Below, piece after piece: positions 4,425 through 57,120 of a stretch of DNA of 64,000 nucleotides; within the stretch, counting starts at the first letter, position 1; every line of letters begins with the position of its first letter. The stretch spans positions 62,001 through 126,000 of the forward strand of contig JACTMO010000080.1 in assembly GCA_014584605.1 (NCBI GenBank), read 5' to 3'. The notes below the pieces were generated by a model that ran no database searches, was not told the DNA's origin, and saw only the letters and a list, made by a program, of their open reading frames with translations. A program made the position numbers and the translations under genes. This stretch comes from Bacteroidota bacterium (GTDB lineage Bacteria > Bacteroidota > Bacteroidia > Flavobacteriales_F > PHOS-HE28).

Positions 4425-7367
4425 TCAGCGCAGCACCTGGAACGGTTCGGCCCCGCTGGCCCGGTCGGTGGTCACCTGCAACACATAGCTGCCAGCCGCC
4501 AGGTCCGCGACGTTCAGGAGCACCCGGTCGTGCAGGTCCGCACCGCTCAACCGCCGGTGGAGGACCGACCGGCCTGCGGCGTCCACCACCCGCAGCTCGG
4601 CCCGGCGGGCATCGCCCCAAGCGGCATGCACCTGCAGCAGGTCGCTGGCCGGTCTGGGGAACAGCAGAAGGTCCACCGTGGCCTGCTCCTCCATGCCCAC
4701 CGTACCCAGGTCCCACAGCTGGATGTCGTCCACGGCGGCCTCCACCAGGCTGCCTCCGTCCAGGTACTCGCCGGGGCGGATGCTGTCCGATGCATGGTAC
4801 TTGATGTACACCGTGGCGTTGGGGCTCACGTGGTCGCCCACGCGGAACGCCACGCGGCGCCAGCTGCGGTCACTGGTGCGTGTGTTCTCCACCGGCACCC
4901 ACGTGCTGCCGTCGTTGCTCAGGAACACCTGCCACCAGTCCTGGCCGGGGTTGGCACCGCTGGGCGGATCGTTCACGTACCAGCGCCAGTAGGTGATCGC
5001 GGGCTCTTGCATGGCCGACAGGTCGAGCGCGGCGCTCCGCAGCGTGGTGGTGCCGTCGTCCACGTCGTTCTCGCCCAGGGGCGATTGCTCGGTGGCCGCG
5101 TTGCCCGTCACGTAGCAGATCTCGCCGTTGGGGGTGTGCTGCTCACCGGGTTGGACCACCGTGCTCGGGTCGCCCGGTGTGCCGTAACTGCCCACCGGCA
5201 GGTTGAACTCCCATTCGCCGGTGGTGGCGTTGTCCGTCGGGAGGCCGATGTCCCAATTGCCGAGCTGGGTGTTGTTGTCGGCATCGTCGGTGGCCACCAG
5301 GGCGAAGCCCACCAGGATGTGGTAGGGCACGTTGGGGTCGGGCTCGGCCGCACCCACCGGTACCACCGCGCTCAGCTGCTGAAAGCTGTCCTCCACGCCC
5401 ATGTAGTAGGAGATGAGGGTGCCCTGCGGTTGAGCGGGGATGGTGACATGGAAGTCGTTGCTCCCGAAGTCGACCATGGGCAGCATGTTCCACGTGGGGT
5501 CGTTGTTCACCCGGTAGAACAGCTTCACCTCCTGGAGGAAGGGCAGGAAGTCCAGGTCCAGGATCAGCTGGGCGTCCAGCTCGATGCCCTGGCCATGGGG
5601 AGCGAAACCTGCGTTGCTGTGCACCAGGGTGGCGTTGCTCAGGAGGGTGATGCCGTGCAGGGCGAAGGCTTCCACGATGACAGCGGCGTTGGGTGTGCCG
5701 TTGGTGATGTCGCCGTCGGTGTCGTCGGCTTGCAGCACGTCGAGCAGCACGTCGCGGAAGGCCTGGCCCTCGTTGCCGTCCGGCGTATTGGCCTGCAGGC
5801 CGGGGAAGGCCTCCACGAAGAGGGTGAGCATGGCGTTCATGTCATTGCCCAGCAACACGTAGGTGTCCCACCAGGCCCCGGCGATGATCTCCCCATCGGC
5901 ATGCACCTCGCCCACCAGGTCCACCGGATACACCTTGCGGTTCTCGTCGTAGCGTCGGATGAAGGCGTCGGGGTCACTCAGCGAACTGCCTTCGGCCATG
6001 ATGGGGTCCTCCGTGATCGACAGGGACCACACATCGGCGTAGCCTTCGTTCATGGCACCGTTGGTGAACTGGCTGAGCAGGGAGCCGTAGAACTTGTCGT
6101 TGATGCCGTGGCCGTACTCATGGTACACCACCTCGGCGATCTGCGCATAGCTCTGGCAGTCGTTGCCTTCCTGGTAGAAGTTGATCGACCCACCGTCGTA
6201 GAACGCGTTGCAGGTGCCGGCCACGTCCACGTTGGCCGTGAAGGGCAGGTCGAGCGATGTGAAGCCGGGCAGCCAGGTCTTCATGTGATCGTGGACCACG
6301 TTCACATGGTAGTAGGCACTGCGTTCCCGGAGGTTGGCATCGCCGTCGAAGCTGATGGCGTTGGCGCCTTCCTGCAACGTGGTCTGGAAGCTCGGTGTGC
6401 TGCCGCCGGTCTTCACGTTGCACCAGCGCCCGTCCAGGAAGAAGGTCGCGTTCACGGGCCCGCCCACCCCGGTGTTCAGGTAGCCCTGATCATCCAGGTA
6501 CTGGCTCAGCCCGTTCACCACCACGCGCAGGTCCGGCAGCACTTCGGTGGTGGCCGGGATGTACGGGTTCTGCGTGTAGGCGCTCGCGCTGGCGCTGATC
6601 TCGGCCCCCGCAGCGGCCGGGGGGGCGTGGTGCATCACCTGGTCCTGCCTGTGGAGCAGCTCGCCCGACCGGGCGTCCACCCAGCAGGCCCAGCGACCGG
6701 GGACCCCTGCTTCCACCGTATGCACCACGACCTCCTGCACGAGCTTGTGCACCACGGACCGATGCTCCGGGACCGGCAGGATGCGCAGGCCGTTCACGTC
6801 CGCGCCCACGATGCCGGTGAGCCTGGCCGATGCGCTGGCCACTGCGGCGGCCTCGCTGATGGAGGGTTGCGCCCCCACCTGAATGCCCGGGTACAGGTCG
6901 GTACCGAAGGCGATCACCCGCCCCTGTGCATCCAGTTTCACCATGGCCTGCCCGAAGAGCACGGGTAGTCCGTGGTGCTGCTGGGCGAAATGCACATAGG
7001 TATGCTTCGGTGTGGGATGGACCGAACGCAGGACCATCTCTTCCAGCGGCAGCCCGAAGCCCGCAAGCTGGTGCTGAAGGAAGTCCAGGGCCCGGGAGGC
7101 AGGGTCCGCACCCAGGGTGGCGATGGGCTTGCCGTAGGCGCGATGCGGCAGTCCGTTGGCCTCGTTGAACTCGACCAGCCAGGTGCCGTGCGTCGCCACG
7201 AACGAACGCCATTGCGGCCGGGCTCGCAGCGCCTCCTGCCAGGCGATGTCCGGTGTACGCACCCGGTCGCCCAGGAAGGTGATGCGCCTGTCATCGCGGC
7301 CGCCGTCGATGGACATGGCGGGCAGGGAAGCGACGAACAGGCCGATGAACAGCAGTGGGGTGCGCAT
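4425..7367 (-). CDS. Secreted M36-family (fungalysin-like) metallopeptidase with T9SS type A sorting domain
   Basis: A 980-residue secreted zinc peptidase. The start at 7367 gives a clean signal peptide (MRTPLLFIGLFVASLPAMS); a start further upstream would bury it. An FTP-like propeptide region precedes the catalytic domain, whose zinc motif HEYGHG sits near residue 415, followed by the EGYADVWSLS segment that supplies the third ligand in M36 enzymes. The C-terminal third contains a beta-sandwich domain ending in a T9SS type A sorting domain (LFPRPASDLLQVHAAW ... GSYVLQVTTDR). It is expected to be exported through T9SS and anchored or released at the surface for protein degradation. Confidence 0.92.
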   Translation of the reverse strand: MRTPLLFIGLFVASLPAMSIDGGRDDRRITFLGDRVRTPDIAWQEALRARPQWRSFVATHGTWLVEFNEANGLPHRAYGKPIATLGADPASRALDFLQHQLAGFGLPLEEMVLRSVHPTPKHTYVHFAQQHHGLPVLFGQAMVKLDAQGRVIAFGTDLYPGIQVGAQPSISEAAAVASASARLTGIVGADVNGLRILPVPEHRSVVHKLVQEVVVHTVEAGVPGRWACWVDARSGELLHRQDQVMHHAPPAAAGAEISASASAYTQNPYIPATTEVLPDLRVVVNGLSQYLDDQGYLNTGVGGPVNATFFLDGRWCNVKTGGSTPSFQTTLQEGANAISFDGDANLRERSAYYHVNVVHDHMKTWLPGFTSLDLPFTANVDVAGTCNAFYDGGSINFYQEGNDCQSYAQIAEVVYHEYGHGINDKFYGSLLSQFTNGAMNEGYADVWSLSITEDPIMAEGSSLSDPDAFIRRYDENRKVYPVDLVGEVHADGEIIAGAWWDTYVLLGNDMNAMLTLFVEAFPGLQANTPDGNEGQAFRDVLLDVLQADDTDGDITNGTPNAAVIVEAFALHGITLLSNATLVHSNAGFAPHGQGIELDAQLILDLDFLPFLQEVKLFYRVNNDPTWNMLPMVDFGSNDFHVTIPAQPQGTLISYYMGVEDSFQQLSAVVPVGAAEPDPNVPYHILVGFALVATDDADNNTQLGNWDIGLPTDNATTGEWEFNLPVGSYGTPGDPSTVVQPGEQHTPNGEICYVTGNAATEQSPLGENDVDDGTTTLRSAALDLSAMQEPAITYWRWYVNDPPSGANPGQDWWQVFLSNDGSTWVPVENTRTSDRSWRRVAFRVGDHVSPNATVYIKYHASDSIRPGEYLDGGSLVEAAVDDIQLWDLGTVGMEEQATVDLLLFPRPASDLLQVHAAWGDARRAELRVVDAAGRSVLHRRLSGADLHDRVLLNVADLAAGSYVLQVTTDRASGAEPFQVLR

Positions 7368-13351: not shown

Positions 13352-16336
13352 TCACTGCAGCACCAGGCGCTGCTCGGTTACCTGTTCGTTGGTACGGATG
13401 CGAAGCACATAGGTGCCCGGGGTCAACGTCGCGGCCACATCCCCCACGGTGTTCATGCCCTTGGCCAGCGTGGTGCGGGTGCTCCATACCGCACGGCCCG
13501 TGGCGTCGAAGAGCAGCAGTTGCGCTGTGGTCGCCTTCCCGGGCCACACCACGGCAACGACGCCCCCGCTGGGATTCGGGTACAGCATCCACTCCTCACC
13601 CGTGGCCTCGGCCAGGGTGGTGCTGATCGCGGCGGAAAGGCAGATGGAGAACTCCCCTCCCGCCCCGAACTGGGTGTTGGAATACACGCGCACCACATGG
13701 TCCGTGTTCGGCGCCACGGTGACGTCGTAGGGCGCCACGGGCCCGATCACGCAGCTGAGCTCCGTCCCGTTGCAACCATCGTACACCACCACCACCGCAT
13801 CGCCCATGCTCACATTGTCGAAGTTGATGGTGACGGCCGTGTTGGGCCCCGAGTTGAAGCTGTACCACATGTCCAGGTACTGGCCGGTGGTGGCATCGCA
13901 ACTGGGGTCGCCCGCATCCTGGGTGGCCTGTGCGTTGTTGCCTTGCGCACCGTTCTGCGGACAGTCCGTGGCGGTCCAAACGGGCAGACCGACGGCATTG
14001 GCACAGTCGTCGTTCGTCGGCTGGCCGGGGCATGCCGATGCCGCAAGCGTGAGGGTGTACGGCCCGGTGGTGCCCGACCCGAACTGGCCTACGGGCAGCC
14101 AATAGGTGCCCGGTGGCAAGGTGGCGAACCGGATGGTGACGTTGCCGTCCGCACAGGAGGTGGTGTCATAGGTGCCCGCATGGAAGGTGTCCGCCGGGCA
14201 GGAGGTCCACACGATGTACACCTGATCGAAGGCCGGTGTGGTGCCGCAGTAGGCCACGGTGACATCGGCGCAGTCGGCCAGGGTGAAGGCATGCCACACC
14301 TTGGGCACATTGTCGTCCATGGGCGAGCCGGCGACCGCATCCCCGGTGGATGTCGCGCCCACCGTGGTGCCGGTGAACGTCAGTCCGCCACCGATGGCCA
14401 GCGGTTGCGGGACCACGTTGGCACAGTTGTCGTTGACCGGTGCTGCACCCCCGCCGAAGACACAGATGTCGAATCCGGTCGTTGCCGGGATGTCCGTGTA
14501 ATAGTGGTACAGCCGCACGTGGTAGGTCTGTCCCACGGTGAGCCCCGTGGCCTGGATCACTTCCGTGCCTCCTTCCAGGGTGGCATCCGCGCAACCGAGG
14601 CTCGTCGGGTTCGCGCAACCACCGGACAGGAGCTCCACCACGGCGTCCAGCGAGTCGGAGCACGCCACTTCCACCGTGAGGTCCGTGGCCGTGGCCACGA
14701 AGCTGAACCACACATCGTCGTTCGCATCACCGGTGAAGCCATTGCAGGTGATGGCCGGCAGGGAGCCGGTGGCGTTGGCCACGCTGCCGGTCACGTACTG
14801 GCAGGTGGTCCCGGCCGTGAGCGTCGTGGCCCCTCCGCACTCGTCGTTGGGCGGCAGGCCCGTACAGGCCGTGGCGCTAACTTCCAGCGTGTAGGGTCCG
14901 GTCGACCCCGCCCCGAACTGACCCACCGGCAGGTAGTACGTGCCCGCCGGCAGCGCGTTGAAGAACACCGTTCCGTTGCCGTCCGGGCAGGTGGTGAAAT
15001 CGTAGGCGCCGAGGATGGCCGAGCCCGCCGGGCAATCCGGGGTGATCGCGATGTAGATCTCGTCGAACACGGGGGTGGTGCCGCAGTAGCTCACCTGCAC
15101 ATTGGCGCATCCCGAAAGGGTGAAGGCGTGCCAGACCTTGGGCGCGTTGTCGTCCAGGTCGGACAGGGGGACGGCATCGTTGGTGGTCGTGGCCCCGACC
15201 GTGGTGCCCGAGAAGGCGAGCGAACCGCCCACGCTCAAAGCCTGGGGAACGATGTTCTGGCACTGGTCGTTCGGCGGGGTGGGCGAGCAGGCTGTGGCGC
15301 TCAGGTGGATGGTGTAGGCACCCCATGAGCCGGCCCCGAACAGGCCCACGGGCAGGTAGTAACTGCCTGCGGGCAATTGCGCAAAGACCACCGTGCCGTT
15401 GCCGTCCGGGCAGGTGGTGAAATCGTAGGTGCCGAGGATGACCGAGTCCGCCGGACAATCCGGGGTGATCGCGATGTAGATCTCGTCGAACGCGGGGGTG
15501 GTGCCGCAGTAGTCCAGCGTGACGTTCGCACAGCTGCTCGTGGTGAACCGATGCCAGACCTTCGGCACACCGTCCTCGAAGTCGCTGCCGGCCACCACAT
15601 CGTTGACCGTTGTCGCACCTGCGGTGCTGCCCGTGAACGTGAGCGATCCACCGATGGGCAGGTTCTGCGCGACCACGCTGGCACATTGGTCGTGCGCGGG
15701 TGGCGGAGGGGTCGTGAACACACAGATGGCCAGGTCCGTGGTGGGCGCCGGTCCGGTGTAATAGTCATAGACCCGGACGAAGTAGGTGGCACCCACGGCG
15801 AGACCGGTCAGCGACACCATCTCGGTCCCGTCATCGACCACGGCGTCCGCACAGGCGATATTGGCCCCGTTACAGGCGCCGCTGCGCACGTCCACCACGG
15901 CGTCGAATTGCGCCGAGCCGTCCACCATGACGGTGATCGCCGGAGCCGTGGCGATGAACTTGTACCACACGTCGTCGTCCGCGTCGCCGGTGAAGGTGTT
16001 GCACGCGATCGCCGGAATGCTGTTCGTGGCCCCGGCCGCGCTTCCGGTCACCGGCATGCAGGTGGCCCCTACCGCAAGGGTGATGGCGCCGGCGCAATCG
16101 TCGTTCACCGGCCCCCCCCCGCGGAAGAGGTCCGCGCTTGCCGGCCTCCCGCTCTTCTCCTGCGCGGCATCGCCGGCCGTCAGCCGTCCTTGGCGATGGG
16201 AGCTGGCCGGTTGAAGCCCGTCCCGGCGGACCGTGGGGAACCGTTCAATGTCCTGTTTCGTTCGCTGGGCCGTGGCATCCATGGCCAGGAGGGCCAGGGC
16301 CGCCACCACCGCACGCATCGCATAGTGTCCGAGCAT
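13352..16336 (-). CDS. Large secreted repeat protein with T9SS type A sorting domain
   Basis: A 994-residue secreted protein (signal peptide near MRAVVAALALLAMDATAQ; start 16318 is an alternative). It is built from about 140-residue cysteine-containing beta modules in the order A-B-B-A-B-C. A modules contain NDDCAGAITLAVGATC and FTGDADDDVWYKF, resembling pre-peptidase C-terminal-like domains; B modules contain VWHAFTLSGCANVQVSYCGT and FTTCPDGNGTV. The last 80 residues (EEWMLYPNPSGG ... GTYVLRIRTNEQ) are a T9SS type A sorting domain. No catalytic domain is visible, so it is probably a surface adhesin or structural protein. A TAGCTTCG box precedes the start. Confidence 0.85.
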   Translation of the reverse strand: MLGHYAMRAVVAALALLAMDATAQRTKQDIERFPTVRRDGLQPASSHRQGRLTAGDAAQEKSGRPASADLFRGGGPVNDDCAGAITLAVGATCMPVTGSAAGATNSIPAIACNTFTGDADDDVWYKFIATAPAITVMVDGSAQFDAVVDVRSGACNGANIACADAVVDDGTEMVSLTGLAVGATYFVRVYDYYTGPAPTTDLAICVFTTPPPPAHDQCASVVAQNLPIGGSLTFTGSTAGATTVNDVVAGSDFEDGVPKVWHRFTTSSCANVTLDYCGTTPAFDEIYIAITPDCPADSVILGTYDFTTCPDGNGTVVFAQLPAGSYYLPVGLFGAGSWGAYTIHLSATACSPTPPNDQCQNIVPQALSVGGSLAFSGTTVGATTTNDAVPLSDLDDNAPKVWHAFTLSGCANVQVSYCGTTPVFDEIYIAITPDCPAGSAILGAYDFTTCPDGNGTVFFNALPAGTYYLPVGQFGAGSTGPYTLEVSATACTGLPPNDECGGATTLTAGTTCQYVTGSVANATGSLPAITCNGFTGDANDDVWFSFVATATDLTVEVACSDSLDAVVELLSGGCANPTSLGCADATLEGGTEVIQATGLTVGQTYHVRLYHYYTDIPATTGFDICVFGGGAAPVNDNCANVVPQPLAIGGGLTFTGTTVGATSTGDAVAGSPMDDNVPKVWHAFTLADCADVTVAYCGTTPAFDQVYIVWTSCPADTFHAGTYDTTSCADGNVTIRFATLPPGTYWLPVGQFGSGTTGPYTLTLAASACPGQPTNDDCANAVGLPVWTATDCPQNGAQGNNAQATQDAGDPSCDATTGQYLDMWYSFNSGPNTAVTINFDNVSMGDAVVVVYDGCNGTELSCVIGPVAPYDVTVAPNTDHVVRVYSNTQFGAGGEFSICLSAAISTTLAEATGEEWMLYPNPSGGVVAVVWPGKATTAQLLLFDATGRAVWSTRTTLAKGMNTVGDVAATLTPGTYVLRIRTNEQVTEQRLVLQ
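14973..15089 (-). repeat. Internal coding repeat, copy 1
   Basis: This 117-bp part of a B module is nearly identical to the part 423 bp further on (about five mismatches), so the two adjacent B modules are a recent in-frame duplication of 141 codons. Confidence 0.8.
15396..15512 (-). repeat. Internal coding repeat, copy 2
   Basis: This is the partner of the copy at 14973, encoding the same FDEIYIAITPDCPA segment of the preceding B module. Confidence 0.8.
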
Positions 16337-27432: not shown

Positions 27433-30400
27433 TCAGGGCAGTTGTTGCTGACGCACGGCGGTGGGCAGTGAACCTCCGATGTTGAGCAGGATGGGGTCGC
27501 GGTCGTTGGCACCGCCGGCGTATTTCACCACCCCGTCCAGGTTCACGTCCTCGCTCCAGTAACCACCCACGGTGGCCGTCGGGACGTTACCGCCGATGCG
27601 CACCAGGACGGGGTCGCGGTCGTTGGCGCCGCCAGCATACTTCAGCACGGCGTCGCGCACCACGTTGCCCGACCAGAGCGCCCGCTTGCCATTGGCGAGC
27701 ACGGCCCTGGCATCGGTGCCGTAGGTGGCGGTGCTGCCCAGCGTCAGGTCCACGAGCTTCATGTTCTTGTTCAGCAGGGTGCTGGTGGCCGTCATCACGC
27801 CCAGGTGGTTCCGGTGCCGCACGGCGATGAAGTAGTTGTCCGAGGCCACGTTGAACAGCAGGCGGGGCTGTCCGTCCGTACCCACGATGTCACCGTCCCG
27901 CTGCAGCAGTGCGCTGCGCGTCTCCAACACCTGGGCCGAGTTGTTCTTGTTGCGCAGCTCCACGAGCACCCAGTCCACCACGGCGTTCGCACCGGTGGTG
28001 GCGAGCACGCCGCCTCCCACGGTTTCGCCCCCTCCGCTCCCGGCGTGCGTGAAGCCGAGTGCCGTAAAGGGTTCCACGGAGGGGATGAGGCCGCCGCTGC
28101 GCAGGGCATCACGCATCAGGTTGGCCTGGGTGTCGAAGGCGCCCTGCAGCATCACCCTCAGGTTCACACTGGGCGGGCAATCGAGCCAGCGCCACAGCAC
28201 ACTGCCCGGGATGATCGTGCGCGTGCCGTTCCCCGGGGTCTGCCAGTACAAGGCGAGGTGGTCGCCACCGGAGGACTCCTTATGCAGCATTTCCACATAG
28301 TAATACGCTCCGGCCTGCAGGGTGATCCCCGCGCTGGTCTGTTGCGGGTACTTGGTGAACTCGCCCGGATTGGCATACCCGGGTACCGAGCAGATCTGCT
28401 GCTTGTACCGCGGGTCGGCATTGGGGCTCAGGTACACGATGGATTCATCGTCGGAGACGGCCGTAAAGACATAGGTACCCGTCGTGGGCACCAGGATGTA
28501 CCCCCGCATGCGCGTGCCGTAGTTGTTGCCGATGTTCGACGAGTGGGTGAACGAGGTCGGATAGGTCGTGGAGGTGGGATTGTCGGGGTAGTTGGGGCTC
28601 GCCAGCAGGGAGGCGACCGTGCTGCCGGTGATCCCGCTCCAGTATTGCCGCAGCACGCTGCCCGAGGCACCGATGCACTGCGGCGGGTCGAGGGTGATCA
28701 CACTGATGGTCACGGTCGCCTGGCCCGTGAGCCCGTCATTGTCCGTCACCGTCAGGGTCACCAACCGGTCGCCCGTGTCCGTGAAGGAATGGGACGGCGC
28801 CACCTGGGTGGAGGTGCTGCCGTCGCCGAAATCCCAGAGGTAGCTCACGATGGTGCCGGGGTCGTGGGAATCCGCGCCGTTGAACTGCACGTTGAGCGGG
28901 CCGGTCCCCACCGTGACGTTCGTGCCGATGACCGCAATGGGTGCGATGGCGCTGCAACGCGGGAACAGCCATTGGGTGTCGGTGGTGCTCAGGCCCGCCG
29001 CGTCGGTCACGGTCAGGATGATCTCATAGCTGTACGATTCTCCATCGCAGCCCACGCCGCTGATGATCGTGCTGGTCACCGGGGCCGGGTCCGTCGGTTC
29101 GGGGTGCGTGTGCGTGTTGTGGTGCAGGACGGTCTGCCAGGCGTAGGTGAGCTGGGCCGGGCCGTGCTCGTTGTCGGTCACTGCGGCCTCCAGCAGGTAG
29201 GTGGTGTCCACGCCGACGGGGAAGGTGCCACCATCGATGAAGCTGGTGATGTCCACCGTGGGCGGCGAGTTGTTGACGCTCACCAGCAGGGTGGCCTGGT
29301 TGGTCTGGCTGTTGTTATCGGTCACCGTCAGGGTCACCGTGAAGCTGGTCGGGGTGTTGGGGGGAGCGGTGAAGACGTGGGCGGGGTTCGCCAGGGTGCT
29401 GGTCTGTCCATCCCCGAAATTCCACAGATAGGTCAAGGGGCCGGATTCCGGATCGTAGGAGGTGCTGCCGGTGAACTGCACGTTGAGCGGGCCCGGTCCA
29501 TACTGCAAGTTCTGTGAGGCCACGGCCACCGGTGGCAGGTTCACAGCCTGGGTGTAGCAGATGCGGCGAATGGCGTTGGTCGCGTAGTTGGAGTAATACA
29601 GGCAGCCGTCGGGCCCCTCGCCCACCCATACGATGGCGCCCAGCGAGGAGGCGAAGTCATGCCCGCTCTGCGGCTTGTCCTGGCCGTCGAACACGAACCG
29701 TTTGATCCAGGCGCCGGGGTAATCCGCGTGGAAATACACGTTCTGGTAACCGGCCGGCCAGCCGTTGCCCGTGATCCAGGTGCCGCCGATGGAGGCGTAA
29801 CCACCGAACATGGGCCCGGGCACGGGTGAGTTGGGGTCGTTGAGGTCGGTGGCCGTGGCCACTCCGTTGGAGAAAGTGGCCGTGCGCGCGTGATTCTGGC
29901 CGTGGCGCCAGTCGATCGCGGGCCGCGCATGGATGAACTTGCGGATGTTGCCCGGGACCTGCAACGCCGGATTGCAGGGGTTCGGATGCGCGTTCAAGGG
30001 ATTCTCCGTGTCCTGCTTGCACAGGTCCTGGAAGCGGAAGTACGGCATGGTGCAGTTGATGCCGTCATACAGCGGATTGGGTGCATCCATGTTGTAGGTC
30101 GGCGTGTTCATGTAGCTGTTCATCGGGTCCATCCCCTCGAACAGCGGCCAGCCGAAGTTCATCCCGCCCTCAATGCACACGTTCATGTCCTCCCAGGTGT
30201 TCCATTGCACGTCGCCGATGTAGATGGTGCCCGGATCGCCTGCGGCGGGATCCGGGCTGCCCGTGCCCGGGCGCAGCGTGCACCGGTAGGCGTTGCGCAG
30301 GCCCATGGCCCACATCCGGCTCTGGGCCGAACGCGGTTCAGCCGCGTTCCAGAAGGGGTTCGAGGGCAGTCCATCCCCGGTGGCCGGGTCAAGCCGCAAC

Positions 30401-31137
30401 AACTTGCCATTGAAGCTGTTCACCATCTGGGAACGGAAGGCCCCCACGTTCTCGGCCGGACGGATGATGCCGTCGATCAGGGCTTGCGAATAGTACGTCT
30501 CCCCCGCATTGCCCACGTCCGTGCTGGAATAGCTTGCACCGTCGCCCACCGTTACCAGCAGGGTGCCGTCCGTGCCGAAGAGCACCGTGCCCGTGCTGTG
30601 CGATTCGTGCAACAAGGGCGCGCCCGTGGACGGGCTCTCGCCCAGCAGGACCAGGCGGCTGCCGTAGTTCACCGTGTTGAAGGAGGGGCCCACGGCCGTG
30701 TAGCGCGTGAGCCGCATGATCGTGGCGCTGTAATACTCGTTGGTCGCCGCGTTGTAGTTGGGCGTTCCGAAGTTCATCAGGTGGTGGCGGTCCACCGCGT
30801 ACAACAGGTAGATGTAGCCGTTGGTCAGGAAGTTGGGGTCAAGGGCAAAGCCCAGGAAACCGTGGTCGCGCCAGTTGCCCACCTCCTCGCTGATGTCGAT
30901 CAACGGACTGGGGAGTCGAACGCCGTTCTCCACGATCCACACCTTGCCTTCCTTTTCCCATACGTACATGCGGTCGTTGGCATCCCACACCGCTCCCTGC
31001 GGAGCCACCCAGCCGCCCATCACCAGCACGTCCGCGAAGCCGGAAGGCACCGTTTGAGCATGGCAATCACGGACCAGCCCGGGGAGCAGGGACAGAAGGA
31101 TCAGGAACAAAGAGCGGAGCGGGTGAAGCTTGGACAT
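27433..31137 (-). CDS. Large secreted PQQ/sorbosone-dehydrogenase-like protein with PKD, PA14 and dockerin-like C-terminal module
   Basis: A 1234-residue secreted protein. After a signal peptide (LFLILLSLLPGLVRDCHAQ) comes a glucose/sorbosone-dehydrogenase-like propeller (about 30-540; WVAPQGAVWDANDRMYVWEK, HGFLGFALDPNF). A PKD domain follows (LTYLWNFGDGQTST), then a segment with ITSFIDGGTFPVG, a second PKD (VSYLWDFGDGSTST), a PA14 domain (about 830-1000; GTRMRGYILVPTTGTYVFTA), and a final 240-residue module with two KYAGGANDRDP repeats and a DVNLDGVVKY calcium-loop-like motif. There is no standard T9SS tail. The same module ends the 55237 gene. A TAAATTCG box lies 44 nt upstream. Confidence 0.82.
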   Translation of the reverse strand: MSKLHPLRSLFLILLSLLPGLVRDCHAQTVPSGFADVLVMGGWVAPQGAVWDANDRMYVWEKEGKVWIVENGVRLPSPLIDISEEVGNWRDHGFLGFALDPNFLTNGYIYLLYAVDRHHLMNFGTPNYNAATNEYYSATIMRLTRYTAVGPSFNTVNYGSRLVLLGESPSTGAPLLHESHSTGTVLFGTDGTLLVTVGDGASYSSTDVGNAGETYYSQALIDGIIRPAENVGAFRSQMVNSFNGKLLRLDPATGDGLPSNPFWNAAEPRSAQSRMWAMGLRNAYRCTLRPGTGSPDPAAGDPGTIYIGDVQWNTWEDMNVCIEGGMNFGWPLFEGMDPMNSYMNTPTYNMDAPNPLYDGINCTMPYFRFQDLCKQDTENPLNAHPNPCNPALQVPGNIRKFIHARPAIDWRHGQNHARTATFSNGVATATDLNDPNSPVPGPMFGGYASIGGTWITGNGWPAGYQNVYFHADYPGAWIKRFVFDGQDKPQSGHDFASSLGAIVWVGEGPDGCLYYSNYATNAIRRICYTQAVNLPPVAVASQNLQYGPGPLNVQFTGSTSYDPESGPLTYLWNFGDGQTSTLANPAHVFTAPPNTPTSFTVTLTVTDNNSQTNQATLLVSVNNSPPTVDITSFIDGGTFPVGVDTTYLLEAAVTDNEHGPAQLTYAWQTVLHHNTHTHPEPTDPAPVTSTIISGVGCDGESYSYEIILTVTDAAGLSTTDTQWLFPRCSAIAPIAVIGTNVTVGTGPLNVQFNGADSHDPGTIVSYLWDFGDGSTSTQVAPSHSFTDTGDRLVTLTVTDNDGLTGQATVTISVITLDPPQCIGASGSVLRQYWSGITGSTVASLLASPNYPDNPTSTTYPTSFTHSSNIGNNYGTRMRGYILVPTTGTYVFTAVSDDESIVYLSPNADPRYKQQICSVPGYANPGEFTKYPQQTSAGITLQAGAYYYVEMLHKESSGGDHLALYWQTPGNGTRTIIPGSVLWRWLDCPPSVNLRVMLQGAFDTQANLMRDALRSGGLIPSVEPFTALGFTHAGSGGGETVGGGVLATTGANAVVDWVLVELRNKNNSAQVLETRSALLQRDGDIVGTDGQPRLLFNVASDNYFIAVRHRNHLGVMTATSTLLNKNMKLVDLTLGSTATYGTDARAVLANGKRALWSGNVVRDAVLKYAGGANDRDPVLVRIGGNVPTATVGGYWSEDVNLDGVVKYAGGANDRDPILLNIGGSLPTAVRQQQLP

Positions 31138-52148: not shown

Positions 52149-54275
52149 CTATCGCAGCAACGACACGTGGCCCCGGTGCTGATGCCGTCGGCCGAACCCA
52201 TCGCGGAGCACCACCGTCCAGGCATACACCCCTTGCGGCTCACCCTGGCCCGACCAGCCCTGTGACGGTTCGGTGGACAGGAAGCGCTGGGCGCCCCAGC
52301 GGTCGAAGATGCGCAGTTCATAGCCCAGCGCACGTTGAACGCTGGTGACCGGCAGGAACAGCTCGTTCACGCCGTCCCCGTCGGGGGTGAAGGCGTTGGG
52401 GGCGAAAAAGAGGTAGTCGCCCTCCACGCAGAGCTCCGTGGCAGCCGTATCGGTGCAGCCTTCCGCATCGGTCACCACCAGGGTGATGGGGTGGCAACCG
52501 GGGCCTGTGAAGGCGTGCAGCGGCGAGGCCCCGCTGGCCGTGGTGCCATCCCCAAAGTCCCAGGTCCATTGCACGGCATCGGCGGAAGCATCCTGGGGGG
52601 CCACGGGGCCACTTCCCTCCTGCACCACGGCCGGCACGGTGAATGCCGCCACCGGTGGTGCATGCACCGCGATCGCGGCACCGGCGGCACTACCCACGCA
52701 GCCCGGCGGCACCACTTCCACCACCGACGGGGCGAAGGTCCCCGCCTGCGCATAGCAGTGCTGCACAACGGCGCCGATGGCCGTGCTGCCGTCCCCCAGG
52801 GCCCAGGTGAAGGTCCCCTGCCCCACGGCGGTGAGTGATACGCACAGCGGTGCACAGCCCCCCTGGACATCGGCCTGCACGATGGGCGTCGGAAGCGAGG
52901 CCACCGCCACGACCACGGCATCCGGGGCGCTGACGCATCCCGCTGCATCGGTGGCCACCACGCTGTACGTGCCGGCGGTGGCCGGGTTCAGCAGCGGACC
53001 TGAAGGCGTCCAGGTGAACTGCAAAGCGCCGGTGCCACCGCTGCCTGAAGCCGTGAGCAGGAGCGCGGAGCCGTCGCACACCGTCGTATCGGCCATGGCC
53101 TGTACCTGCACGCCGGCAGGCGCGTTCACCACCCCGGTCGCCGAGGAGGAACAACCGCCCGCATCGGTCACCGTCACGGTGTAGGTGCCCGGCGCGAGCC
53201 CGCTGAGCGCGGGGCCGTTGCCGCCTCCCGGCGACCAGCTGTAGGCGATGCCGGAGGTGTCCGTGGTCACCACGGCCGCGACCGAACCCGGTCCTCCAGC
53301 GCAGGTCGCGTCGGTGACATCCACCGTCACTTCAGGCACGACCACGGTCCTGGCCACGCTCACCGGCCCGGTGCAAGGCCCCACGGTGGTGAGGGTCACG
53401 GTGTAGGTCCCTGGGGCGGAGAACGCATGCACGGGGGTCTGGGCGGTGGAGCTGTTCAGCGCGCCGCTGGCCGGATCGCCGAGATCCCAGTTCCACGCCG
53501 AAGGGCATCCGCCCGGTGCGGGCGTGAAGCTGGCCGTGGCCCCGATGCAGCTCCAGGTGAAGTCGGCGACCGCTCCTTCGGCCTCCTGGATGAGGATGTC
53601 GTCGATGGCGATGCCGTCGTAGCCGTTGCACTGGGTGCCGGCGCCGAAGAGAAAGCGGAACAGCACCTGCGGCTGGTTGGCCGCGGCCGGTACGCAATGC
53701 CTGGCGGTGACCCATCCGCCGCTCCCGAAGCCGCCCTGACAGCTGCCGCCGGTGGCACCGCTGCGTCCGCTCCAGCCATGCTTGGGGCTGGCGGAGGTGA
53801 GGTTGGTGATGTTGCCCGCGTTGAACCAGTTGTCGTTGAGGCAGTCCACCGGATCGCCCCAGGCCCCCACGTTGCTCCAGCTCAACCCTCCGTTCAGCGA
53901 GATCTGGAAGGTCATGCCATCATACTGGCGTTCACACTCCCAGTAAAGCTTGAAAGAGACCCAGGGGTGGTCCAACGCGCTCATGTCGAAGCAGGGGCTC
54001 TCCAGCCAGCTCAGCTGCCCATAGTTGTAGAAGGTGCCTGAAAGGCCGCCAACGCACCAACTGCGGAGCCCGCCGCCGGCGGTGTTGATCGACGGATGGG
54101 CGGGAGTGCCCCACGCCCAGTCGCTGCTGACGCCGCCGGCGGTCCATTGCGGGCCGTTCTCGAACCCTTCCGCATAGGGGAAGGAGCTGATGGGGGCCAC
54201 GCACTGTGCCCATAGACCGCCTCCGCATGGGGTCAGGAGCAGAACGGCGATCGCGCGATGGAAGGGACTGCGCAC
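52149..54275 (-). CDS. PKD-domain secreted protein with T9SS type B (gliding-associated) C-terminal domain
   Basis: A 708-residue secreted protein. A GTG start at 54275 gives a hydrophobic leader (HRAIAVLLLTPCGGGLWAQ); the open frame extends upstream into the next gene but without signal logic. The N-terminal about 200 residues resemble a MAM/jelly-roll module (FPYAEGFENG, WVSFKLYWECERQYDGMTFQ). Several PKD-like domains follow (WNWDLGDPASG, FTWALGDGSTAIG, WTWDFGDGTTASG). The end LFFAPNAFTPDGDGVNELF with FDRWGAQRF is the classic type B sorting domain, directing secretion through T9SS. Confidence 0.87.
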   Translation of the reverse strand: MRSPFHRAIAVLLLTPCGGGLWAQCVAPISSFPYAEGFENGPQWTAGGVSSDWAWGTPAHPSINTAGGGLRSWCVGGLSGTFYNYGQLSWLESPCFDMSALDHPWVSFKLYWECERQYDGMTFQISLNGGLSWSNVGAWGDPVDCLNDNWFNAGNITNLTSASPKHGWSGRSGATGGSCQGGFGSGGWVTARHCVPAAANQPQVLFRFLFGAGTQCNGYDGIAIDDILIQEAEGAVADFTWSCIGATASFTPAPGGCPSAWNWDLGDPASGALNSSTAQTPVHAFSAPGTYTVTLTTVGPCTGPVSVARTVVVPEVTVDVTDATCAGGPGSVAAVVTTDTSGIAYSWSPGGGNGPALSGLAPGTYTVTVTDAGGCSSSATGVVNAPAGVQVQAMADTTVCDGSALLLTASGSGGTGALQFTWTPSGPLLNPATAGTYSVVATDAAGCVSAPDAVVVAVASLPTPIVQADVQGGCAPLCVSLTAVGQGTFTWALGDGSTAIGAVVQHCYAQAGTFAPSVVEVVPPGCVGSAAGAAIAVHAPPVAAFTVPAVVQEGSGPVAPQDASADAVQWTWDFGDGTTASGASPLHAFTGPGCHPITLVVTDAEGCTDTAATELCVEGDYLFFAPNAFTPDGDGVNELFLPVTSVQRALGYELRIFDRWGAQRFLSTEPSQGWSGQGEPQGVYAWTVVLRDGFGRRHQHRGHVSLLR

Positions 54276-55236: not shown

Positions 55237-57120
55237 TCAGGGCAGCTGTTCCAGGCGGACGGCCGTGGGCACGGCCCCACCGATGTTGACCAGGATGGGG
55301 TCGCGATCGTTCGAGGACCCGGCATACTTGACCACGCCGTCGAGGTTGATGTCGGCCGTGTGGTAGCCAGTGGCGACGGCCGTGGGCACGCTCCCACCCA
55401 CGGTCGTCAGCACCGGGTCGCGGTCGTTGCCGGCACCGGCGTACTTCAAGCGGTCGTCGTGCTGCACATTGCCGGTGCGGAGGACCTGAACGTTCCCGAT
55501 CGCCTTGCGGGCATCGGTACCATAAGTGGCCGTACCCGGGAGCCGCAGGTCCAGTGCGGTCGCGGCGGCCGTGAGCGTCATGGGGGCGGCGGTCATCACC
55601 CCGAGGTGGTTCCTGTGGCGGAGGGCGACGTAGTAGGCTCCGTTGCCCACCTTGAAGCTCAGGGAAGGGCTGCCGTCATGCGCCACGATGTCGCCGTCCC
55701 GTTGGAGCAGGCCGTGGCGCGTGGCCACGACCACGGTGGGGTCGGCGGCGCTGCGCAGCTCCAGCCGCACCCAGTCCACAATGGCGTCCGGGCCGTTGAC
55801 GGCAAGCATGGCCGTAGTGGTGCTCTCACCGGCCCCACCGGCCACCGCAGGCCACCCGCTGCCCGTGTACGGCTCGGTGAGCGGGACAGGTCCAGTCGTG
55901 CGGAGCGCATCGTTCATCAGCATGGTGACGGTGTTGTACGGTCCTTCGAGCAGTGCCTTGGGGGCCAGGCGCACCGTGGCCGCCGGGTCCACGATGCGGT
56001 ACACCTGCCCCGCGTACATGTTGCACGCGAAAAGATCGCCGATGGCGTTGGCCCCGATGGCCGTGACACCCGCCGTGCCATTGGCCATGAGGACCTGGGC
56101 GGACCATCCGCCCTGGCCGTCGGGCACGAGCGCTCGCACCTGCCCCTGGCAGAAGTCGGTGTAGATGTAGCGCCCCTGCAGGGAAGGATAGGTCATGCCC
56201 CGGTACACCCTGCCGCCGATCACCGAACAATGGCCATCGGTATGCGCATGTACCTGCACGGGCGGCACGTACGCGGCGGGTGGTTCGCATCCCGCCGAAT
56301 TGTAGCTCGCGTGGCCTTCGAAACAGCGCCATCCGAAGTTGGCACCGGCGCCTGTGCCGAGGCCCACGTGGTCCACCTCCTCCCAGGCCCCCTGGCCCAC
56401 GTCCCCGATCCACACATCGCCATTGGCCGGATCGAAGCAGAAGCGCCACGGGTTGCGCAGACCGCTCGCCCAGATCTCGGGCATGGTGTCCGCCGGGTTC
56501 GCCGAGGCGAAAGGATTGTCCGACGGGATGGTGTAACCGGCGCCGGTGCCCACAGCGATGCGCAGGAGCTTGCCGAAAGGCAGGGACATGTCCTGCGCCC
56601 GGTCGCCCGGGTCGCCGGCACCGCCCCCATCGCCCATGGCGAACCACAGATGACCATCGGGCCCGAAGTGCAGGTCGCCGCCGTTGTGGTTGGTATAGGG
56701 CTGATCGACGGTGAACACGACCACCTCGCTCGTGGGGTCGGCGATGTCGGGGTCGGCGCTCACGCTGAAGCGGGAGATCCGCGAGGTCCCGTTGCCTGTT
56801 CCGGTGGTGTAGTGCACATAGAAGAAGCCGTTCTGGGGATATCCCGGATGGAAGGCCAATCCGAGCAACCCCTGCTCATTGCCTGCATCGAGGACCTGGG
56901 CGGTGATGTCCAGGAAGGGTTGAGACCGCGCCCTTCCGTCAGGCCCCACGATGCGGATGCGGCCCTGGCGTTCCACGACGAAGAGGCGGCCGTCGCCGGC
57001 ATGGGCCAGGGCCACGGGATCGTCGAACGCGATGCCCAGGGCCTGCAGTTCCACGGTCTGTGCGTGTAGTCCACCGATGATCGCCGTGCAGGCCAGCAGG
57101 CAGGGAAGCAGGTGTCGCAT
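55237..57120 (-). CDS. Secreted sorbosone/glucose dehydrogenase-like propeller with dockerin-like C-terminal module
   Basis: A 627-residue secreted protein. A signal peptide (LLPCLLACTAIIGGLHAQ) precedes a PQQ-type dehydrogenase propeller (about 25-380): IAFDDPVALAHAGDGRLFVV, GLLGLAFHPGYPQNGFFYVH, GDLHFGPDGHLWFAMGDGG and ASGLRNPWRFCFDPANGD are the canonical blocks. The remaining 240 residues are the same module as in the 27433 gene, ending DINLDGVVKYAGSSNDRDP ... PTAVRLEQLP. There is no T9SS type A or B tail. It is likely a paralogue lacking the PKD and PA14 insertion. Confidence 0.85.
   Translation of the reverse strand: MRHLLPCLLACTAIIGGLHAQTVELQALGIAFDDPVALAHAGDGRLFVVERQGRIRIVGPDGRARSQPFLDITAQVLDAGNEQGLLGLAFHPGYPQNGFFYVHYTTGTGNGTSRISRFSVSADPDIADPTSEVVVFTVDQPYTNHNGGDLHFGPDGHLWFAMGDGGGAGDPGDRAQDMSLPFGKLLRIAVGTGAGYTIPSDNPFASANPADTMPEIWASGLRNPWRFCFDPANGDVWIGDVGQGAWEEVDHVGLGTGAGANFGWRCFEGHASYNSAGCEPPAAYVPPVQVHAHTDGHCSVIGGRVYRGMTYPSLQGRYIYTDFCQGQVRALVPDGQGGWSAQVLMANGTAGVTAIGANAIGDLFACNMYAGQVYRIVDPAATVRLAPKALLEGPYNTVTMLMNDALRTTGPVPLTEPYTGSGWPAVAGGAGESTTTAMLAVNGPDAIVDWVRLELRSAADPTVVVATRHGLLQRDGDIVAHDGSPSLSFKVGNGAYYVALRHRNHLGVMTAAPMTLTAAATALDLRLPGTATYGTDARKAIGNVQVLRTGNVQHDDRLKYAGAGNDRDPVLTTVGGSVPTAVATGYHTADINLDGVVKYAGSSNDRDPILVNIGGAVPTAVRLEQLP

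Follow-up and report, generated by a model that had tools for sequence, protein, structure and literature searches.

Two secreted proteins encoded in the window, the 64,000-nucleotide stretch of a Bacteroidota genome analysed here (GCA_014584605.1, contig JACTMO010000080.1, positions 62,001 to 126,000), end in the same strongly conserved, multi-copy module, which is well supported as dockerin-like and is probably a diverged X-dockerin through which exoenzymes attach to a surface partner that depends on the T9SS. Host protein 1 (1234 aa; 27433..31137, minus strand) consists of a signal peptide, a GSDH propeller (~30076-30993), two PKD domains, one PA14 domain and the module, and host protein 2 (627 aa; 55237..57120, minus strand) of a signal peptide and a GSDH propeller (~56119-57027) fused directly to the module. 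The GSDH domain is common to both, and the PKD and PA14 domains occur in protein 1 only; GSDH-bearing frames like host protein 1 (~1230-1320 aa) are found across the genus, several of them with the module. By alignment, copy 1 corresponds to the last 241 residues of host protein 1 (27436..28158, minus strand) and ends at the stop codon, and copy 2 to the last 245 residues of host protein 2 (55240..55974, minus strand). The original prediction that the two tails align over their full length was confirmed, with an end-to-end identity of 54% and E = 2.5e-77 in a search space of one genome. The motifs that it quoted (LLQRDGDIV, RHRNHLGVMTA, ATYGTDAR, two KYAGxxNDRDP repeats, D(V/I)NLDGVVKY and PTAVRxxQLP) are all present, and the module end that it gave, 28170, lies about 12 bases beyond our boundary, an immaterial difference. 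It was also correct in finding no type A or type B T9SS tail on either protein, as no type A, B or C model matched them at E <= 1; other proteins of the same window gave a type A match (13355-13585, minus strand) and a sub-cutoff type B match (52152-52403, minus strand). Both carriers of the module are indeed propeller proteins of the GSDH kind, but the extent of the family had been understated, with 25 full copies present in the genome. The window copies matched no known family in Pfam or NCBIfam, and a PDB search by sequence returned no relatives of the module.

Searching the source assembly (3.7 Mb, 99.9% complete) yielded 27 module matches; besides the 25 full copies there were a degraded copy and a stub. 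Each host protein carries one full copy. The match runs right up to the stop codon in 24 of these copies and falls three residues short in the other. In the 25-copy alignment the mean column identity was 62%, and 39 columns were invariant, including HRNHL and both NDRD motifs; the second loop kept D1 and NDRD in every copy. Because the full copies are conserved and nearly all stop-terminal, the tail is a strongly conserved, multi-copy, C-terminal module. Its hosts are otherwise unrelated secreted proteins: GSDH propellers, M36 fungalysin, M43 and M12-like metalloproteases, a Porphyromonas-type arginine deiminase, a trypsin-like protease, a lysyl oxidase with a MAM domain, a purple acid phosphatase, and FG-GAP/UnbV, beta-helix and sortilin-like proteins. 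A signal-peptide-like N terminus was recognized in 23 of the 25 hosts (the exceptions being L033 and L036) by a crude hydropathy scan and the reading of two ORF starts. The degraded copy (L031:13915-14694; G000:C79:34067) lies in a frame that begins within the module and has an altered end, and the stub (L035, near 6395-6649; G000:C66:43433) retains only about the last 38 residues; these are possibly decaying genes or assembly breaks. The lysyl oxidase and MAM protein (L028:130-3609) has an additional sub-threshold match to a classical dockerin at residues 708-757, upstream of the module.

Within the window's genus, all 23 genomes examined contained the module, with 5-48 matches each. Outside the genus, a single genome, from a different family of the same class, gave 15 matches, and the 15 further relatives in the sample gave none. 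The module was present in 52 of 395 evenly drawn Bacteroidota genomes.

The nature of the C-terminal half became apparent from distant members of the family. These proteins (e.g. L150, L165, L167 and L188) retain the first domain, recognizable by DWVLVELR and HRNHL, and also terminate with, or close to, ..[VIL]P, and their tails carry classical dockerin repeats, e.g. GDTNGDGVIDDTDR...YINQDTDMSGIVTTRD. When both kinds were aligned, KYxGxxNDRD lined up with an ordinary DxNxDGxVxxxD loop that is longer by four residues, added ahead of the final acidic position. In copy 1, the N-terminal beta-rich (Ig/X-module-like) part covers module residues 1-162 (27673..28158, minus strand; approximate boundary), was modelled by AF2 with pLDDT >92 nearly throughout and has a profile match to the classical-loop relatives. 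It is followed by the first extended EF/dockerin-type loop (NVVRDAVLKYAGGANDRD; 27613..27666, minus strand) and by the second (DVNLDGVVKYAGGANDRD; 27496..27549, minus strand), the better conserved of the two. The corresponding loops of copy 2 are NVQHDDRLKYAGAGNDRD (55417..55470, minus strand) and DINLDGVVKYAGSSNDRD (55300..55353, minus strand). The first loop is weaker than the second in both window copies. Like dockerin type I (PF00404), the relatives have two DxNxDG loops and then helices, whereas each loop of the window copies, with its insertion, takes 16 residues to run from the first acidic position to the last, against 12 in dockerin type I, and the window proteins were unmatched by PF00404 at E <= 1. 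Of 22 distant tails, 9 gave a Dockerin_1 (PF00404) match at E <= 0.1; the best one, scored as an isolated tail, exactly equalled the curated cut-off of 22.9 bits, and the others were sub-threshold. A profile-profile comparison of the own-genome copies with the classical-loop relatives gave probability 100 and E 1.1e-54 over the whole module and both repeats. At the level of sequence, the module was thus shown to share ancestry with a family of Bacteroidota tails whose dockerin loops are classical.

Structure prediction pointed in the same direction. An AF2 model of a distant relative (pLDDT 96.8) was compared with 350,542 PDB chains, and the five best matches were all type II X-module-dockerins (XDoc) of Clostridium thermocellum, with E values from 6.6e-4 to 5.4e-3 and probability 1.00 (4u3s_B, E 6.6e-4; 5g5d_B, TMt 0.62). 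The model of a window copy reached a pLDDT of 89.5, with lower confidence in the dockerin half, and found XDoc chains at ranks 1, 3 and 7, weakly (E 0.2-0.6). For the classical-loop family, the predicted fold was shown in this way to resemble the clostridial type II XDoc. The dockerin-like call of the original prediction was borne out by the classical loops of distant members, by PF00404 in 9 of 22 tails and by the XDoc fold match, and NDRD, which it had taken to supply the second acidic position, belongs in the alignment to a normal loop with four inserted residues. It had also named terminal position, T9SS-negative genomes and fold as points on which it could fail: the copies are C-terminal, no T9SS-negative genome within the sample has a module copy, and the predicted structure has dockerin-type loops.

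X-dockerins bind cohesins. Pfam cohesin was present in 127 of the 395 Bacteroidota genomes, although its matches there scored moderately and may include other beta-sandwich domains. It was enriched among module-positive genomes (33 of 52, against 94 of 343 others; p 7e-7, shared ancestry ignored), and this enrichment persisted when only SprA-positive genomes were compared (p 3e-4, shared ancestry again ignored). In genome G353, a 274-aa protein at L188:5056-5877 combines a cohesin with a type A CTD (TIGR04183), both over cut-off. A gap of 7 bp separates it from the downstream gene for a 388-aa protein, whose module lies at L188:6388-7047. Genome G078 encodes a 787-aa protein in which the module is joined to two Pfam cohesins, with a cohesin and TIGR04183 protein 1.7 kb downstream, and in G014 a 460-aa cohesin and module protein is clustered with proteins that bear a cohesin and a CTD. 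By analogy, these clusters appear to follow the logic of anchoring scaffoldins, the T9SS tail taking over the role of the S-layer anchor. In G014 (L186, L187), several cohesin and T9SS CTD proteins surround module genes, making this locus a candidate multi-part surface assembly. Three cohesin-like repeats in a module protein of G124 (L155) were found by an iterated profile only and were set aside, being unconfirmed by Pfam. The source genome itself contained no cohesin by PF00963 at E <= 0.1 or by a Bacteroidota cohesin profile (best E 0.77), nor did the fetched loci of the window's genus, and the neighbourhoods of the 25 copies showed no recurrent partner-like gene, only antisense artefact ORFs.

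We propose that the tail is a C-terminal docking module of XDoc type, in which a beta-sandwich X-like domain would be followed by two EF-hand-like dockerin repeats. The calcium-ordered loops would present a surface that binds a partner non-covalently on the T9SS-served cell surface, and one kind of socket could thereby display many unrelated exoenzymes. In the distant relatives, the socket is probably a cohesin on a neighbouring protein whose CTD is of T9SS type A. In the window's genus, where both loops are longer by four residues (KYxGxxNDRD) and the family has apparently expanded to 5-48 copies per genome, the partner may have diverged past recognition or have been replaced by another surface or T9SS component. 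The cargo would cross the outer membrane either bound to a CTD-bearing partner or through direct recognition of the tail. A bolder version, which we advance only tentatively, is that T9SS-displayed cohesins and X-dockerin plugs form a cellulosome-like system with non-cellulolytic exoenzymes, whose plug was remodelled in the window's lineage, with longer loops and as many as 48 copies, and came to serve independently in place of the type A sorting signal.

The strongest competing explanation, which we consider possible but rather unlikely, is that the module is itself a fourth type of CTD, a T9SS sorting signal read by the translocon or by a PorV-like shuttle, its dockerin ancestry being incidental. 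Like the known T9SS CTDs (TIGR04183/PF18962, TIGR04131 and NF033708), the module is multi-copy and exactly C-terminal, and it is carried by the same kinds of cargo, as PAD, M36, M43 and P-domain proteins are typical T9SS cargo. The Porphyromonas-type peptidylarginine deiminase that bears the module (L029:3171-5453) has a counterpart in P. gingivalis that is a T9SS type A cargo. The module was likewise confined to T9SS-positive genomes of the sample: SprA, the T9SS translocon, was present in 52 of 52 module-positive genomes, and none of the 91 SprA-negative genomes had the module (hypergeometric p 4e-7, with genomes treated as independent despite their kinship). However, the listed SprA-negative genomes belong mostly to one family, so that few independent events underlie this co-occurrence. 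Above cut-off, the source genome yields about 127 matches to type A and 31 to type B, and none of its 25 module tails matched TIGR04183, TIGR04131 or NF033708. The module also differs from the CTDs in its size (~240 aa against ~72-100) and in its dockerin pair, and it shows no significant profile similarity to them; homology to the type A CTD was not supported, hhalign giving an unconvincing probability of 18-22%.

The GSDH enzyme of host protein 2, which has close relatives throughout the genus, allowed the history of the tail to be traced. The tree set contained five rows with the module, together with 17 genus rows and four outgroups with other tails, and 20 of 24 non-module tails tested matched the type A model. 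The five module-bearing rows formed one group (support 97/92), for which a single replacement suffices; one replacement of another GSDH tail by the module within the genus explains the data. Because the outgroups carry type A tails, the replaced tail was probably of type A, and the second GSDH paralogue of the source genome (C19) bears a type A tail. This interchangeability on one enzyme suggests that module proteins reach the same compartment as type A cargo. It fits a sorting signal well, but a docking module with a T9SS-exported socket predicts the identical co-occurrence and swap, and docking and sorting are not told apart by them. The source genome further has 12 PorP/SprF genes and five PorV-family matches (C64, C67, C35, C60 and C50), four of which exceed the cut-off. 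Additional shuttles of the PorV kind could handle different classes of tail, and a dedicated shuttle for the module could be among the five; against this, neither PorV nor PorP genes adjoin the module genes in this genome. A sorting signal would also leave the dockerin pair and the cohesin clusters unexplained.

We regard as quite improbable that the tail is a calcium-stabilised adhesion, carbohydrate-binding or LPS-binding domain that needs no protein socket. Beta-sandwiches and calcium loops are common in surface domains, and the failure to find a cohesin partner in the source genome would fit such a function. On the other hand, the module is almost invariably C-terminal and present as a single full copy per protein, cohesin genes lie nearby in some distant relatives, and XDoc is the top fold match. 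Chance or compositional similarity between two high-GC ORFs is virtually impossible given E values down to 1e-118, the 25 copies and the hundreds of loci elsewhere.

Of the known systems, the docking module proposed here comes closest to the type II XDoc of C. (Acetivibrio) thermocellum CipA (PDB 2b59, 4u3s, 4wi0, 5g5d), the best fold match, with which it shares the order of its parts and the C-terminal position; the cohesin genes that adjoin the module in some distant relatives add to the likeness. The Bacteroidota module differs in its outer-membrane setting and in a sequence identity of only 11-16%, and the window's genus differs further in the four-residue insertion in both loops, the very many copies and the varied enzymes that carry them. 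Its putative anchoring socket has a T9SS CTD, and no cohesin was found in the source genome. A review of T9SS effectors names CTD types A, B and C only (PMC10202324). Our literature search returned no relevant paper with the module motifs, though it may have been described before, and the material found, mostly titles and abstracts, described no T9SS-anchored cohesins. The X-dockerin kind as such is already known, and the apparent novelty lies in the Bacteroidota family, with its longer loops and its expansion, and in its neighbours with a cohesin and a T9SS CTD. If our interpretation is true, a tail that current family databases do not see, and that an environmental lineage carries on dozens of secreted proteins in each genome, would gain a name and a mechanism. 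The interpretation would also link T9SS surface display to cohesin-dockerin assembly, two systems usually studied separately, and it makes directly testable the question of whether docking brings Bacteroidota proteins that lack a known CTD to the surface.

A search across all GTDB species gave at least 575 matches, and the best 80 were titled as Flavobacteriales or Bacteroidota MAGs. Among these best 80, all 106 closed module ORFs ended exactly at the stop codon, 93 of them with QLP. The modules of one MAG titled Chryseobacterium gleum (L076, L107 and L110) were very close to those of Flavobacteriales MAGs, and its name may be wrong.
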